From Brumimicrobium glaciale (GTDB lineage: Bacteria > Bacteroidota > Bacteroidia > Flavobacteriales_D > Crocinitomicaceae), in the NCBI RefSeq assembly GCF_004152935.1, contig NZ_SETE01000004.1:372001-436000 (forward strand): a stretch of DNA of 64,000 nucleotides, read 5' to 3'. The stretch's first letter is position 1; every line of letters begins with the position of its first letter. A program made the position numbers and the translations under genes. Below, piece by piece: positions 5,099-47,890 of this stretch. Below the pieces are notes generated by a model. It made no database searches. It was not told where the DNA came from and was given only the letters and a program-made list of their open reading frames with translations.

Positions 5099-6853
5099 TT
5101 ACATTCCTAAAACCGGAACATCCTTCACCTTTGTTTTCTCTAAATAATCCAATAAGATTTTTCCGCTCTCGTTGCCGTCTGTAAAGATTTCAATAACCGC
5201 TGGACGATCATTGGATTGGATTTCATAGAATTTATCCAATTGCTGATCAATTTCTTCCATTGAATTGGCTGCGAAATAATTAACATTGAACGCTTCACAA
5301 ATTGATTTTGCTGAGAAGGAATGTTTGGCTACGAAAAACTCATCTCCGTTTGGTGTGCTTTGCGGTCCTGGAATAATATTGAAGATTCCTCCTCCTCCAT
5401 TGTTAATCAAGAAAACTCTGAAATTTGAAGGAACATGGTGATTCCAAAATGCATTGCTGTCATAGAAAAAGCTGATGTCACCTGTGATGAAAGTATGTAA
5501 TTTGTTTTCTCCTACTATTGCGTTTCCGATGGCTGTGCTTGTTGAACCGTCTATTCCGCTTGTTCCGCGATTACAATAGTATTTAATGCTATTAATCGGG
5601 TCAAAAAGTTGTGCGTAACGAATGACGGAACTATTCGATAAATGCAAGTCACTTTGATCGGGAACGGAATCTAAAATCAAATCGAAAACTGATAAATCTG
5701 AATAGGGTACGGTCTCCAAATATTGATCATGATTTCCTTTCACCAAGTAATCCAATTGTTTCCACTGCTCTCCATAACGCGAAGTATTTCTTGAGAATCC
5801 ATCTTCTAACAGGAAATCTAGAAATGCATTGGGTTGCATAGGAATTGAATTGGTTAACGATTGATAAGTGTCCATAAACGGAAATTCTTGACCAATCTTC
5901 CAGTTGTTTTTCGCTTTGTATTTTCGCAAATAAGTTTTGATCTTTTTAGAAATTACTGCTCCTCCGATGGTAATCAATAAATCAGGCTGATATAATTCTG
6001 GATCGTTCTCTAAAAAACTGGTAATCGTCCTGTCGATACAATGAATAAAACTTTTGTCTTGCAAATTACTTGTGTTTTCTACCACAATTGCAACACTTTT
6101 ATCATTGGCTAAATTCTTTAATTGTTCGTTCAAATATCCGTTTTTAGGCATTTGACCACAAAGAATCATTTTACGGGGAGAATTGTTCCAAATTTCACGC
6201 AATTCCTCTTTTTGAACAGAAGATAATTGCGGATTCAATTCCATTATTTCGGTAAATCCTTGAGCATTTTCAGAAGATGTTTCTTTCTCAATAGTTTTAT
6301 ATAAAGGTTCTGTAAAAGGAAAGTTAATATGAATTGGTCCTCCTTGAGCAGATTTGGCAATATTCATTACCTCATCGATTGTTCTTTTATTGAACCAAGT
6401 TTGATCTTTTGAAGTCGGCGTTTCATACAAAGTTGTAGCAGCACAAATATGATTTTGGAATGCATTTTCTTGACGAATTGTTTGTCCATCTCCATGATCT
6501 ACCCATTCATTTGGTCGATCCGCAGAAACAACAATTAGCGGAATATTTCTGTAGAAAGCTTCACTCACCGCAGGATAATAATTCAAAAGTGCCGAGCCTG
6601 AAGTACACATTACCGGGACTGGAGTACCTGATTGTTCAGCCATTCCTAAAGCATAAAAAGCAGCGCTTCTTTCATCTGGAATAACGTAACATTTGAAACG
6701 ATTGTCATTGGCAAAACTCACTACAAGCGGTGCATTCCTTGAACCTGGCGAAAATACAATGTACTTTACTCCATGTTTAAAAAATGATTCTACCAATTGT
6801 TGAACTCCTGCTTTCTCACTTACTTTTCCCATTTCACTTTTAAATTTAGCCAA
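5099..6853 (-). CDS. menD: 2-succinyl-5-enolpyruvyl-6-hydroxy-3-cyclohexene-1-carboxylate synthase
   Basis: MenD is the thiamine-diphosphate enzyme that adds the succinyl-semialdehyde unit from 2-oxoglutarate to isochorismate in classical menaquinone synthesis. The length (584 aa) is close to the family norm. The N-terminal pyrimidine-binding domain shows FSPGSRNAPL and DERSAAFYALGMA, where E is the proton-relay glutamate, followed by TSGSALLNYYPAV. The C-terminal pyrophosphate domain shows GTSGIDGSTSTAIGNA and the metal-binding GDISFFYDSNAF...NNGGGGIF. The enzyme is cytosolic. It is the last gene of a leftward operon, 33 bp after the solute-binding-like gene. An alternative start eight codons in (6832) is possible. 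Confidence 0.95.
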   Translation of the reverse strand: MAKFKSEMGKVSEKAGVQQLVESFFKHGVKYIVFSPGSRNAPLVVSFANDNRFKCYVIPDERSAAFYALGMAEQSGTPVPVMCTSGSALLNYYPAVSEAFYRNIPLIVVSADRPNEWVDHGDGQTIRQENAFQNHICAATTLYETPTSKDQTWFNKRTIDEVMNIAKSAQGGPIHINFPFTEPLYKTIEKETSSENAQGFTEIMELNPQLSSVQKEELREIWNNSPRKMILCGQMPKNGYLNEQLKNLANDKSVAIVVENTSNLQDKSFIHCIDRTITSFLENDPELYQPDLLITIGGAVISKKIKTYLRKYKAKNNWKIGQEFPFMDTYQSLTNSIPMQPNAFLDFLLEDGFSRNTSRYGEQWKQLDYLVKGNHDQYLETVPYSDLSVFDLILDSVPDQSDLHLSNSSVIRYAQLFDPINSIKYYCNRGTSGIDGSTSTAIGNAIVGENKLHTFITGDISFFYDSNAFWNHHVPSNFRVFLINNGGGGIFNIIPGPQSTPNGDEFFVAKHSFSAKSICEAFNVNYFAANSMEEIDQQLDKFYEIQSNDRPAVIEIFTDGNESGKILLDYLEKTKVKDVPVLGM

Positions 6854-30204: not shown

Positions 30205-30527
30205 CGAAAACCTAGGATTAAAATCCTAGGCGAAAATACACCATCCCGCTGGGATTTTGTTGGTTTACTTTTTAGACTCGTTAGGTCTCATGCAGGATCG
30301 TATATCACAGAAATCTTAAAATTATTATCGAAAATCACTCTAAATTTAAAGGAGAAAATCCTAGACGATATTCACCATCCCGCTGGGATTTTGATTGTTT
30401 TTCTTCAGACACGTTAGTACTTATGCAGGAAGGTATATCGCAGAAATCTTAAAATTATTATAGAAAACCGCTCTAAATTTAAAGTAGAAAATCCTAGACG
30501 GATATTCATTATCCCGCTGGGATTTTG
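30205..30527. repeat. Tandem ~134-bp intergenic repeat, 2.3 copies
   Basis: The hairpin module AAAATCCTAGxCG...CATCCCGCTGGGATTTTG begins at 30220, 30355 and 30488, a 133-135 bp period. Between modules lie conserved GCAGGA(T/A)(C/G)GTATATC(A/G)CAGAAATCTTAAAATTATTAT text. The module ends are near-complementary (AAAATCC-AG-CG with CGCTGGGATTTT), forming an imperfect stem. A small palindrome CCTAGGATTAAAATCCTAGG lies at its left edge. There is no coding potential between the tRNA-Leu terminator and the EamA promoter. Confidence 0.7.
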
Positions 30528-30632
30528 TTGGTTTTTTTTTATAAAGATTAGAATATACCAACCAGGGTAACAATTTCACTTTACTTTAACACTTTTTCAG
30601 TAGTCATAGAATCTCAATCTAAAAAGTTCATT

Positions 30633-36024: not shown

Positions 36025-36378
36025 TCACAAACGCTTTTTAAGTAACAATATTTCATCATTACTAAACTCCATCCACCCTAAATCATAGAGCCAATTATAG
36101 GTTTTTCCTTTTGAATTGATGTTTTTATGAGTTTGGTATTTGAAATGAAAGTTCTTCTTATCCATTTCTAATCGCTTAATCTTGACTTGTCGCTTATTCC
36201 CCCCTATCAGTTCAGAAAGAATTGATCTATTTCGATGAAGAATTTTATCGATGTCTGAGGCGGCAATAGCAGTGATTGCTCTTAATTCTAAATGATAGAA
36301 GTTTTTACATTTTACAGAGCAGAATATTTTATCCGCCCGCCCTATAACTAAGTTTCTGCACACTTTACATATTTTCAT
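36025..36378 (-). CDS. Small zinc-ribbon protein, unknown function
   Basis: The 117-residue protein opens MKICKVCRN and has a second cysteine pair in DKIFCSVKCKNFYH, giving a C-x2-C ... C-x3-C type zinc ribbon. The rest is helical with RSILSELIGGN and TYNWLYDLGWMEF. Similar small proteins are common in Flavobacteriia, role unknown. I start at 36378, the first methionine that precedes the zinc motif; upstream residues look non-coding. The 108-bp array begins 140 bp upstream of its start. Confidence 0.8.
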   Translation of the reverse strand: MKICKVCRNLVIGRADKIFCSVKCKNFYHLELRAITAIAASDIDKILHRNRSILSELIGGNKRQVKIKRLEMDKKNFHFKYQTHKNINSKGKTYNWLYDLGWMEFSNDEILLLKKRL

Positions 36379-36517
36379 AATTGATTGATTTAAGTTATTA
36401 AATTGATTTAGATTGATGTAACTCTTATTCAAGATATATAAATTTAACCTTACATTCAAAATATTTGATTAGAATTTTAAAATTAAATCCCAGATGGTTT
36501 TGAAAATTGACTGCATA

Positions 36518-38220
36518 GTCGTTTTTAATGGTTAGTAAAAATAGCAAAAGCCGTTATTGAAATTTAGCGTAAATAGAGGATTTAGAATCTCTACAACTCA
36601 ATAAAATCAGGCAATAAATGCTAGTCGTTTTTAACCGTTAGTGAAAATTAGCCAATAGCCGTTATTAAAATTTAGTATAAATCAAAGATTCAAGTCCCTG
36701 TCAACTCAATGAAATCAAACAATATACGCTGGTCGTTTTTAACCGTTAGTGAAAGATAGCCAATAGCCGTTATTGAAGTTTAGCGTAATTTATGGATTCA
36801 ATGCCTCTACAACTCAATGAAATCAAACAATACAAGCTAGTCGTTTTTAACCGTTAGTAAAATCAGCAGATAACCGTTATTGAAATTTAGCGTGAATTAA
36901 GGATTCAAGTCATTTACAACTCAATGAAATCAAACAATACACGCTAGTCGTTTTCAACCGTTAGTGAAAGTTAGCCAATAGCCGTTATTGAAATTTAGCG
37001 TAATTTAAGGATTCAATGCCTCTACAACTCAATGAAATCAAACTATACATGATAGTCGTTTTTAACCGTTAGTGAAAGCTAGCCAATAGCCGTTATTGAA
37101 GTTTAGCTTAATTTAAGGATTCAAGTCCTTTACAACTCAATGAAATCAAACAATACACGCTAGTCGTTTTTAACCGTTAGTGAAAATTAGCTAATAGCCG
37201 ATATTGAAATTTAGTATAAATCAAGGATTCAAGTCCCTGTCAACTCAATGAAATCAGACAATACACGCTAGTCGTTTTTAACCGTTAGTGAAAATTTGCC
37301 AATAGCCGTTATTGAAGTTTAGCGTAAATTAATGATTCAATGCCTCTACAACTCAATGAAATCAAACAATACAAGCTAGTCGTTTTTAACCGTTAGAAAA
37401 AATAAGCTGTTAGCCGTTATTGAAGTTTAGCGTGAATTAAGGCTTCTAGCCCTCTAAAAATCAATCAAATCAAACAATACACGCTAGTCGTTTTTAACCG
37501 TTAGTGAAAGTTAGCCAATAGCCGTTATTGAAATTTAGCAAAAATAGAGGATTTAGAATCTCTTCAACTCAATGAAATCAGACAATACACGCTAGTCGTT
37601 TTTAACCGTTAGTGAAAGTTAGACAATAGCCGTTATTGAAATTTAGCGTAATTTAAGGATTCAATGCCTCTACAACTCAATGAAATCAAACAATACAAGC
37701 TAGTCGTTTTTAACCGTTACTAGATCTTAAAGAATAACCGTTACAAAAATTTAGAGAAATTTCTCAAACAATTACTTCTACAACTCAATAAAATCAAAAA
37801 AAATAAACGCTAGTCGTTTTTAACCGTTAGTGAAAGTTAGCTAATAGCCGTTATTGAAATTCAGCAAAAATAGAGGATTTAGAATCTCTTCAACTCAATG
37901 AAATCAGACAATACACGCTAGTCGTTTTTAACCGTTAGTGAAAGATAGCCAATAGCCGTTATTGAAGTTTAGCGTAATTATCCAAATAATTCCTTCTACA
38001 ACTCAATAAAACCAACATTTTAACGCTAGTCGTTTTTAACCGTTAGTGAAATTCAGGAAATAACCGTTGCAGAGATTTAGAGTATTTATCCAAATAATTC
38101 CTTCTATACATCAATAAAACCAACCTTTTAACGCTAGTCGTTTTTAACCGTTAGTGAAAGTTAGCCAATAGCCGTTATTGAAATTTAGCGTAAATCAAGG
38201 ATTCAATACCACTACAACTC
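36518..38220. repeat. Tandem array, 16 copies of a 108-bp noncoding unit
   Basis: GTCGTTTTTAACCGTTAG-like anchors begin at 36518, 36624, 36732, 36840, 36947, 37055, 37163, 37271, 37379, 37487, 37595, 37703, 37813, 37921, 38029 and 38137. The period is 106-110 bp and mostly exactly 108. Each unit holds two related 24-bp blocks, AACCGTTAGTGAAAGTTAGC and AGCCGTTATTGAAATTTAGC, spaced 24 bp, plus a TAGTCGTTTTTAA block upstream. The second half is modular: a GGATTCAATGCCTC form, an AGAGGATTTAGAATCTCT hairpin form and a TTATCCAAATAATTCC form occur in different units. No open frame crosses it. The period is too regular, and nothing is unique enough between anchors, for a CRISPR. Confidence 0.92.
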
Positions 38221-38253
38221 AAAATAGCCAATTACAAACACTCCAAAAAAAAC

Positions 38254-47480: not shown

Positions 47481-47890
47481 GAAAATTCAAGGATTCAAAG
47501 AACAAACATTATACGAAGATATAATGTACGGACAATTTGCAAATCGCCCCATTCCTTTGGAAAAATTCAAAGATTGAAAAATTCAAGGATTCAAAGAACA
47601 AACATTATACGAAGATATAATGTAAGGACGATTTGCAAATCGTCCCATTCCTTTAGAATAATACAATTATTGAAAAATTCAAAGACTCAAGGATTCAAAG
47701 AACAAACATTATTCGAAGATATAATGTTCGGGCGATTTGCAAATCGTCCCATTCCTTTAGAATAATATAATTATTGAAAAATTCAAGGATTCAAAGGATA
47801 AACATTATTCGAAGATATAATGTACGGAAGATTTGCAAATCGTCCCATTCCTTTGGAATAATATAATTATTGAAAAATTCAAAAAAATCA
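47481..47890. repeat. Four-copy ~100-bp repeat with two hairpins per unit
   Basis: GGATTCAAAG(A/G)A(C/T)AAACATTAT begins at 47491, 47587, 47691 and 47787, a spacing of 96-104 bp. Each unit has a first hairpin ACATTAT-ACGAAGAT-ATAATGT and a second palindrome near GGGACGATTTGCAAATCGTCCC. The second palindrome matches the isolated element at 54017-54044. The long frame across the repeat is an artefact. No gene is seen between the ferredoxin terminator and the cyclase gene. Confidence 0.88.

Follow-up and report, generated by a model that had tools for sequence, protein, structure and literature searches.

Results

A tandem array lies upstream of a zinc-finger gene

The 64,000-nucleotide stretch analysed here (the window) spans positions 372001-436000 of contig C4 in a Brumimicrobium genome of 4.27 Mb and 12 contigs (G000; G denotes a genome, C a contig and L a fetched locus). 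It holds a non-coding satellite array of 16 tandem units, each with one short box, and to the left of it a gene for a 117-aa zinc-finger protein, whose family we call ZNF (Table 1). The ZNF start codon is 137 bp from the array and the gene is transcribed away from it, placing the array upstream of the gene. A regular expression found 16 anchors at spacings of 106, 108, 108, 107, 108, 108, 108, 108, 108, 108, 108, 110, 108, 108 and 108 bp, and the final unit is truncated. Together with TRF, this bears out the 16 anchors and 106–110-bp period given in a preliminary description of this DNA, which was also right that a long open frame is lacking (no ORF of at least 80 aa inside the array). That description overlooked three sister arrays and the adjoining 117-aa ORF. 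Further tandem repeats occur in the window at 47482-47883, 30220-30536 and 20-429 (96/200 bp, 133 bp and 165 bp, respectively); the box is absent from their printed consensus units.

Table 1 Coordinates of the window array, the adjoining gene and the sister arrays (window positions unless a contig is named)
Feature	Position	Strand	Basis or remark
ZNF gene, 117 aa, clade A	36025..36378	-	ORF list, family and co-location, AF2, dN/dS
Tandem array, 16 units, non-coding satellite	36516..38222	+	TRF (period 108, 15.8 copies), anchors, alignment
Unit 1 box	36520..36534	+	Degenerate, CGTTTTTAATGGTTA
Unit 2 box	36626..36640	+	CGTTTTTAACCGTTA
Unit 3 box	36734..36748	+	
Unit 4 box	36842..36856	+	
Unit 5 box	36949..36963	+	One mismatch
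Unit 6 box	37057..37071	+	
Unit 7 box	37165..37179	+	
Unit 8 box	37273..37287	+	
Unit 9 box	37381..37395	+	
Unit 10 box	37489..37503	+	
Unit 11 box	37597..37611	+	
Unit 12	37705..37814	+	Mostly C6-array type; box 37705-37719
Unit 13 box	37815..37829	+	
Unit 14	37923..38030	+	Chimera, local type then C6 type; box 37923-37937
Unit 15	38031..38138	+	Mostly C6 type; box 38031-38045
Unit 16 box	38139..38153	+	Last unit
Hairpin-form linker, unit 1	36575..36592	+	
Hairpin-form linker, unit 10	37546..37563	+	
Hairpin-form linker, unit 13	37872..37889	+	
Sister array, G000	C6:381946-383606		108 bp x 15.4
Sister array, G000	C4:208978-210009		108 bp x 9.6
Sister array, G000	C3:223138-224179		226 bp (107+119) x 4.6

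Two related CCGTTA blocks are visible in a 14-unit alignment, as first described, and the third, weaker CGTT block is present but is in fact the left arm of a palindrome. The linker can take the hairpin form reported earlier (AGAGGATTTAGAATCTCT), which is restricted to 3/16 units. The reported lack of a TAnnTTTG motif was nearly right: the whole array has none on its plus strand and two on its minus strand.

The window ZNF protein carries a CxxC...CxxxC motif and had no family match above cut-off in Pfam or NCBIfam. Sub-cut-off Pfam matches of four ZNF proteins were to zinc fingers and stray families, none a transposase, and a weak DUF2116 match to homologues suggests that the finger may be a treble clef. 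The AlphaFold2 model (mean pLDDT 93.6) comprises an N-terminal zinc-finger region, a 37-residue helix and a strand-rich C-terminal half, and neither PDB nor BFVD contained a close fold (E ≤ 0.001). PHROGs gave a single weak HNH match (E 0.00029), to the zinc finger of locus L239, and PADLOC gave none. A phage or plasmid origin was considered and rejected: ZNF had no matches among phages and three among plasmids (29–32%), and the palindrome occurs on 11 IMG/VR stretches, with a single site on each.

ZNF homologues number one to four per genome in 20 genomes. Thirty of the 50 matches were taken as loci for a tree, which has 28 rows of 31 loci (L136, L141 and L143 were dropped by the regular expression). 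One half of it, clade A (15 rows, fork 90/83), includes the window protein. Among three Brumimicrobium species, ZNF dN was 0.28–0.32 and dS 1.74 and 2.19, with the third pair saturated; pN of 0.23–0.26 against pS of 0.68–0.76 indicates purifying selection in Brumimicrobium. The closest Brumimicrobium homologues of the window protein (61–62%) likewise have boxes upstream, three in number.

Four arrays share a core and exchange units

Exact copies of the 15-mer CGTTTTTAACCGTTA number 40 in G000, every one inside an array (window 14, C6 14, C4:209k 7, C3 5, elsewhere 0), and 9 of the 10 one-mismatch copies also fall within arrays. The reversed control gave no exact copy and one with a single mismatch. 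So many exact copies in 4.27 Mb, 14 of them in the window, against none for the control, exclude a chance origin of the array core. Outside arrays the exact 15-mer is weak evidence, being held by 16/240 family genomes compared with 9/240 for the reversed control.

Between arrays, identity was 0.966 in the first 14 alignment columns and 0.563 in the rest, for aligned units (the window group excluded units 12, 14 and 15, and six end or odd units were omitted). Within arrays, identity outside the core was 0.80–0.85 for the three 108-bp arrays and 0.66 for the C3 array. This likeness of the non-core sequence within 108-bp arrays differs from the identical repeats with unique spacers of CRISPR. The arrays have the features of a non-coding satellite family, with tandem, non-coding, related arrays at several loci (four in G000, others in G451 and G444).

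The window-array and C6-array consensus sequences differ at 37 discriminating positions. Units 12 and 15 of the window array carry the C6 variant at most of these, and unit 14 begins as window type and turns to C6 type mid-unit, indicating that units pass between arrays on separate contigs. The switch point in unit 14 is away from the box, in keeping with homologous exchange or gene conversion. The mosaic structure first noticed in the sequence is therefore real and extends past the window array, and the recombination between units proposed from it is confirmed, with exchange between arrays in addition.

The G000 core is part of a palindrome of ~28 bp that two sister species carry whole. In G000 the right arm has decayed (no strict palindromes were found), so that a symmetric dimer site would be imperfect there.

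The palindrome recurs in other genera and orders

The 108-bp window unit had no match in 39 relatives. A search of the genus, proposed in the preliminary description, found arrays in 2/9 other genomes (G002 and G004), with the same core and different units; the patterns used gave none in the other seven. Units in G002 and G004 are mostly 105–119 bp, with the core in fuller palindromic form (for example, CGTTATTAACCGTTAWAAACG). Array or site position is kept at two loci within the genus: the icd-adjoining arrays of G000 and G004 occupy the same place, and the G002 C7 array corresponds to a single site in G004. The C4:209k array of G000 and an array in another genus (G091, 185-bp unit) lie near the same three genes.

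Across 399 genomes of the order, the pattern GTTWNTAACSGTTANWAAC had 58 sites, compared with 4 sites (3 genomes) for the reversed control; it was found in 11 genomes, 10 of them Crocinitomicaceae. The same core with other linkers recurs in other genera and orders, and array-bearing lineages belong to different orders (Crocinitomicaceae and Bacteroidales MAGs), with unit lengths of 96–97 bp in G451, 116 bp in G444 and 90–104 bp in G452. In the Bacteroidales genome G444 (L331, L332), a second palindrome, CCGTTTACAAACGG, is close to the box.

Four strict sites in the one-contig genome G075 (4.55 Mb) lie within 82 kb of one another and of its ZNF gene (968445). Such clustering, together with the location of one G000 array 10 kb from parB, would fit an element for chromosome organisation, whether resembling parS or not, to which ParB or some other host factor binds. 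We consider this very unlikely: a ParB-family gene is present in 10/10 genomes tested, including the siteless G007 and G013, and the G075 parB is 0.87 Mb from the sites, which cluster at the ZNF gene instead. The parS idea was dropped on these two grounds. GC skew, taken at 20 samples each from G075 and G000 for origin and terminus placement, was noisy.

The box accompanies ZNF

Eleven of 15 clade A rows had the palindrome core in the fetched ~3 kb, compared with 0/13 within about 1.5 kb for clades B and C (p = 7e-5; the thirteenth row, L010, is 1.9 kb from the G000 C3 array and was counted as boxless within about 1.5 kb). The proximity of this clade C homologue (L010 9099-9461) to the C3 array may be chance. 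In 20 genomes that were chosen knowing which have sites, and so are not random, clade A ZNF was found in 9/9 with strict sites and in 2/11 without. For G006 and G009, its absence was judged from score only, and several genomes have second copies that were left unplaced. G023 and G073 have a clade A ZNF and no strict palindrome. No clade A ZNF lies within about 9 kb of three of the four G000 arrays.

Scanning the genome collection with the clade A alignment and one peptide pattern gave 145 ZNF relatives, of which the best 80 (Bacteroidota/Chlorobiota) were used. Of these best 80 of 145, 64 had the core TAACNGTTA in the 500 bp upstream of ZNF and 16 did not, against 43/4000 background windows of the same loci; its median distance to the start of the ZNF match was 63 bp. 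Box arms were compared with both proteins at the 51 loci where a box and the tyrosine recombinase described below were found. Partial Spearman coefficients were 0.587 for ZNF (permutation p = 0.001) and −0.037 for the recombinase (p = 0.63), showing co-variation with ZNF only; given the physical linkage of box and ZNF, this correlation can be hitch-hiking.

These results bear on whether the array is an ordinary minisatellite, grown from chance intergenic sequence by slippage and unequal exchange, beside which ZNF is an irrelevant neighbour. Its within-array identity outside the core is that of any tandem repeat, and linkers vary freely between species. Against it, the near-invariant core is common to four arrays whose linkers are largely different, and it reappears in further genera and orders, joined to different linkers, and in a consistent position upstream of a single gene family; we regard this origin as unlikely.

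TAnnTTTG occurs between box and ZNF at 15/58 loci (1.7 expected), and the box-plus-TAnnTTTG layout is repeated at a second gene in L233, as expected if boxes were transcription-regulatory operators and arrays amplified the regulation of neighbouring genes in a ZNF regulon. However, 20 non-ZNF Crocinitomicaceae arrays or sites, read manually, comprised 6 convergent, 10 in-line and 4 divergent (one doubtful) gene orientations, so promoters are not preferred. A regulatory operator cluster is disfavoured as the array's role, and we rate the reading as quite improbable. Where found, the motif is downstream of the palindrome, which also counts against a long structured non-coding RNA, a role suggested earlier. 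Palindromes can fold and one linker form is a hairpin, but Rfam gave no match at E 1, folding z-scores were −0.53 to +1.94 (four units, both strands), and compensatory change was seen in 1/10 predicted pairs, with a covariation term of −0.04. The RNA reading is unsupported by these measures, and we think it highly implausible.

A mobile module of recombinase, palindrome and ZNF

Upstream of ZNF and divergent from it, a tyrosine recombinase is encoded at 64/80 loci (best 80 of 145; those of L167, L205 and L223 are in two pieces), and 51 of the 64 also have a box upstream of ZNF. Five recombinases were tested and are related to the IntI and XerA models, all under the cut-offs. Against TIGR02249 they scored 174.6–223.7 bits (cut-off 265) in two or three stretches, short of assignment to the IntI-family integrases with their extra insertion domain; the gap between the stretches may correspond to the IntI insertion.

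Fifty-four locus pairs, from 27 loci, had exactly one blastn stretch in common, of 1450–1760 bp and 70–90% identity (for example, 1556 bp at 90% for L213 and L230), with no second match at E 1e-10 in the locus DNA compared; because some loci are short or ended by contig ends, flanks are not always long. Another 23 pairs had >2.5 kb in common, flanks included. Recombinase, palindrome and ZNF form a compact mobile module of ~1.6 kb (recombinase <- box -> ZNF). The common stretch continues beyond the box on both sides, so the box is internal to the module and not its end. The L179 group, though not every group, has an inverted repeat, TATAACTACAAT...ATTGTAGTTATA, beyond the recombinase at the left end of the module (L179 4668-4740; also L187, L195, L202 and L175, with variants in L177, L172 and L169), a candidate attachment site or terminator.

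A second kind of divergent zinc-finger/recombinase pair in the same family, without the TAACSGTTA palindrome between its genes, occurs in L276 (6851-8447; G002:C5), L277 (4093-5693; G009:C133) and L278 (7418-9027; G013), and is probably a sister module with another box. G000 itself encodes a 361-aa IntI/XerA-like recombinase 1.8 kb from a contig end (L275 1789-2871; G000:C1). We rejected it as the array driver: similar-scoring recombinases are present in four genomes without strict sites (G001, G005, G007 and G008), and the 12 kb examined contain neither ZNF nor box. Twelve tyrosine recombinases of 291–300 aa with near-equal scores (312–316 bits) on contigs C1 and C2 of G007, also a member of the genus, look like a recent burst of a mobile element.

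Arrays occur at ZNF loci that lack the recombinase

Among the best 80 of 145 loci, at least three boxes were present at 8/16 without the recombinase (L165, L166, L203, L206, L216, L232, L239 and L242) and at 0/64 with it (p = 4e-7). These counts use a narrower box pattern; with a wider one, under which L224 has four boxes, L233 alone was viewed among the 64. The fetched DNA of the eight array-bearing loci contained no recombinase (the contigs of L203 and L206 begin in the array). In 24 whole genomes with recombinase–ZNF pairs, the strict pattern TTAACCGTTANNAACG was found 0 times in 7, once in 13 and 2–4 times in 4. In ten genomes without the pair it was found 17 (B. mesophilum), 16 (G444), 12 (G451), 6 (B. 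oceani), 6 (G452), 3, 2, 1, 0 and 0 times; this pattern misses boxes with a three-base gap, and the two zeros are the genomes of L203 and L239. The array-bearing G000, G442, G444 and G446 do encode a recombinase of the family, unlinked to the arrays. At E 1e-60 none was found in G075, G451, G452 and G453, among which MAGs may be incomplete.

ZNF lies between boxes 446–476 bp apart in L232, L242, L239 and L224, and boxes also occupy both sides of it in L216. There, two boxes 238 bp apart make up a segment that recurs 755 bp on, across ZNF (5704-6697).

Integrons and CALIN elements have, in the former case, IntI next to its site, and arrays of a repeated site with genes between some copies. By analogy, boxes could be the core sites of the tyrosine recombinase, with strand exchange inside TTAACCGTTA, arrays could be gene-less cassettes (attC-like or CALIN-like) and ZNF could be the first cassette. 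An IntI-related recombinase adjoining the box, boxes on both sides of ZNF, the exchange of units and the unlinked recombinases of some array-bearing genomes all speak for this reading. Against it, box arms do not track the recombinase, and the box persists beside recombinases only 31–43% identical to that of L173. Recombination would need two boxes, whereas most of the 24 recombinase–ZNF genomes have one or none, and in G075, which has both boxes and ZNF, no such recombinase was found at the threshold above. Unlike integron cassettes, array units lack ORFs of 80 aa, ZNF was the sole gene boxed on both sides in eight loci viewed, and the recombinase was not seen at arrays. Integron-like sites, once the leading idea, were downgraded because the module extends beyond the box and the arms correlate with ZNF; we now judge them improbable.

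Discussion

Four arrays in one genome and a palindrome in front of ZNF point to protein-bound satellite DNA, which has seldom been reported in bacteria. On sequence evidence, we consider it probable that the window array is a satellite of binding sites for the adjoining ZNF protein, which would bind the palindrome as a dimer. ZNF, we infer, has mobile-element ancestry. Within the module, it would act on the single box as an operator to control its own gene and the divergent recombinase. Where a lineage lost the recombinase or left it behind, ZNF would have remained, and box-bearing segments, mostly of 95–119 bp, would have multiplied in tandem by unequal exchange. Gene conversion would have homogenised the resulting arrays, and further intergenic sites would have been colonised. 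That conservation is confined to the box would follow from the protein reading nothing else. At present the array would most likely be a nucleoprotein coated with ZNF. It could be selfish, a satellite that maintains itself while ZNF autoregulates, or an array domesticated for condensation or titration. The set of roles first put forward for the array is in this respect partly supported, a cluster of protein-binding sites and a selfish satellite jointly fitting best.

CENP-B is a DNA-binding protein derived from a mobile element, and its short box is found in otherwise diverging alpha-satellite monomers. Brumimicrobium arrays similarly combine a conserved short box in diverging monomers with a protein of apparent mobile-element descent. 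By this analogy, we tentatively raise the possibility of a bacterial counterpart, in which ZNF, freed from its module, would coat its own dispersed arrays, maintained as a self-propagating satellite or recruited as a chromosome-organising array. One box would then be phylum-wide and the unit genome-specific; in the self-propagating version, the autonomous unit would carry the ZNF gene and the ~100-bp units would be non-autonomous. Unlike CENP-B, ZNF is bacterial, and it is presumably an unrelated protein; its arrays are 1–2 kb, and the comparison does not extend to a link with segregation. The sopC centromere of the F plasmid, with a 43-bp unit at a single plasmid locus and a ParB-type protein, is also a tandem array of an inverted-repeat protein site (putative in Brumimicrobium), in contrast to the four chromosomal arrays of G000.

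Among dispersed repeats, a close parallel is REP/REPIN–RAYT (TnpA-REP; also the subject of PMC3116915), in which the presence of RAYT goes with the abundance of its repeat (PMC2817692). RAYT belongs with the transposases of IS200/IS605 type and has catalytic motifs, and REPs are 20–40 bp, many of them tagged GTAG or CGTC (PMC2817692, PMC3733652). As far as these accounts describe it, the likeness to the system studied here lies in intergenic palindromic repeats genome-wide, one fast-evolving gene flanked by them and descent from a mobile-element protein; ZNF and box likewise adjoin and co-occur. However, the 117-aa ZNF is a zinc-finger protein in which no catalytic motif is recognised and which had no Y1/HUH transposase match in Pfam, and its boxes stand one to a unit in tandem arrays with units mostly of 95–119 bp.

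Long-unit non-coding satellite families dispersed over a prokaryote genome are described in Leptospira interrogans and Methanocella conradii, the only two species of a prokaryote satellite survey in which the cited text reports such families, with a rare transposition mechanism inferred (PMC6749651). The Brumimicrobium arrays are similarly long-unit, non-coding and spread over the genome but, unlike those families, for which the cited text names no partner protein, are accompanied by a gene family and a conserved box. Among the matches listed from open-licence PMC literature, we found no earlier description of a recombinase–palindrome–zinc-finger module.

The analysis brings to light a compact mobile module of recombinase, palindrome and zinc finger. 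The satellites are accompanied by a candidate partner gene and a defined box, and they have a mobile relative in which a single box is usual. With array-bearing lineages in different orders as well, this makes questions about satellites directly testable in small bacterial genomes: how a satellite originates, why its unit length is near 100 bp, and whether it is selfish or useful.
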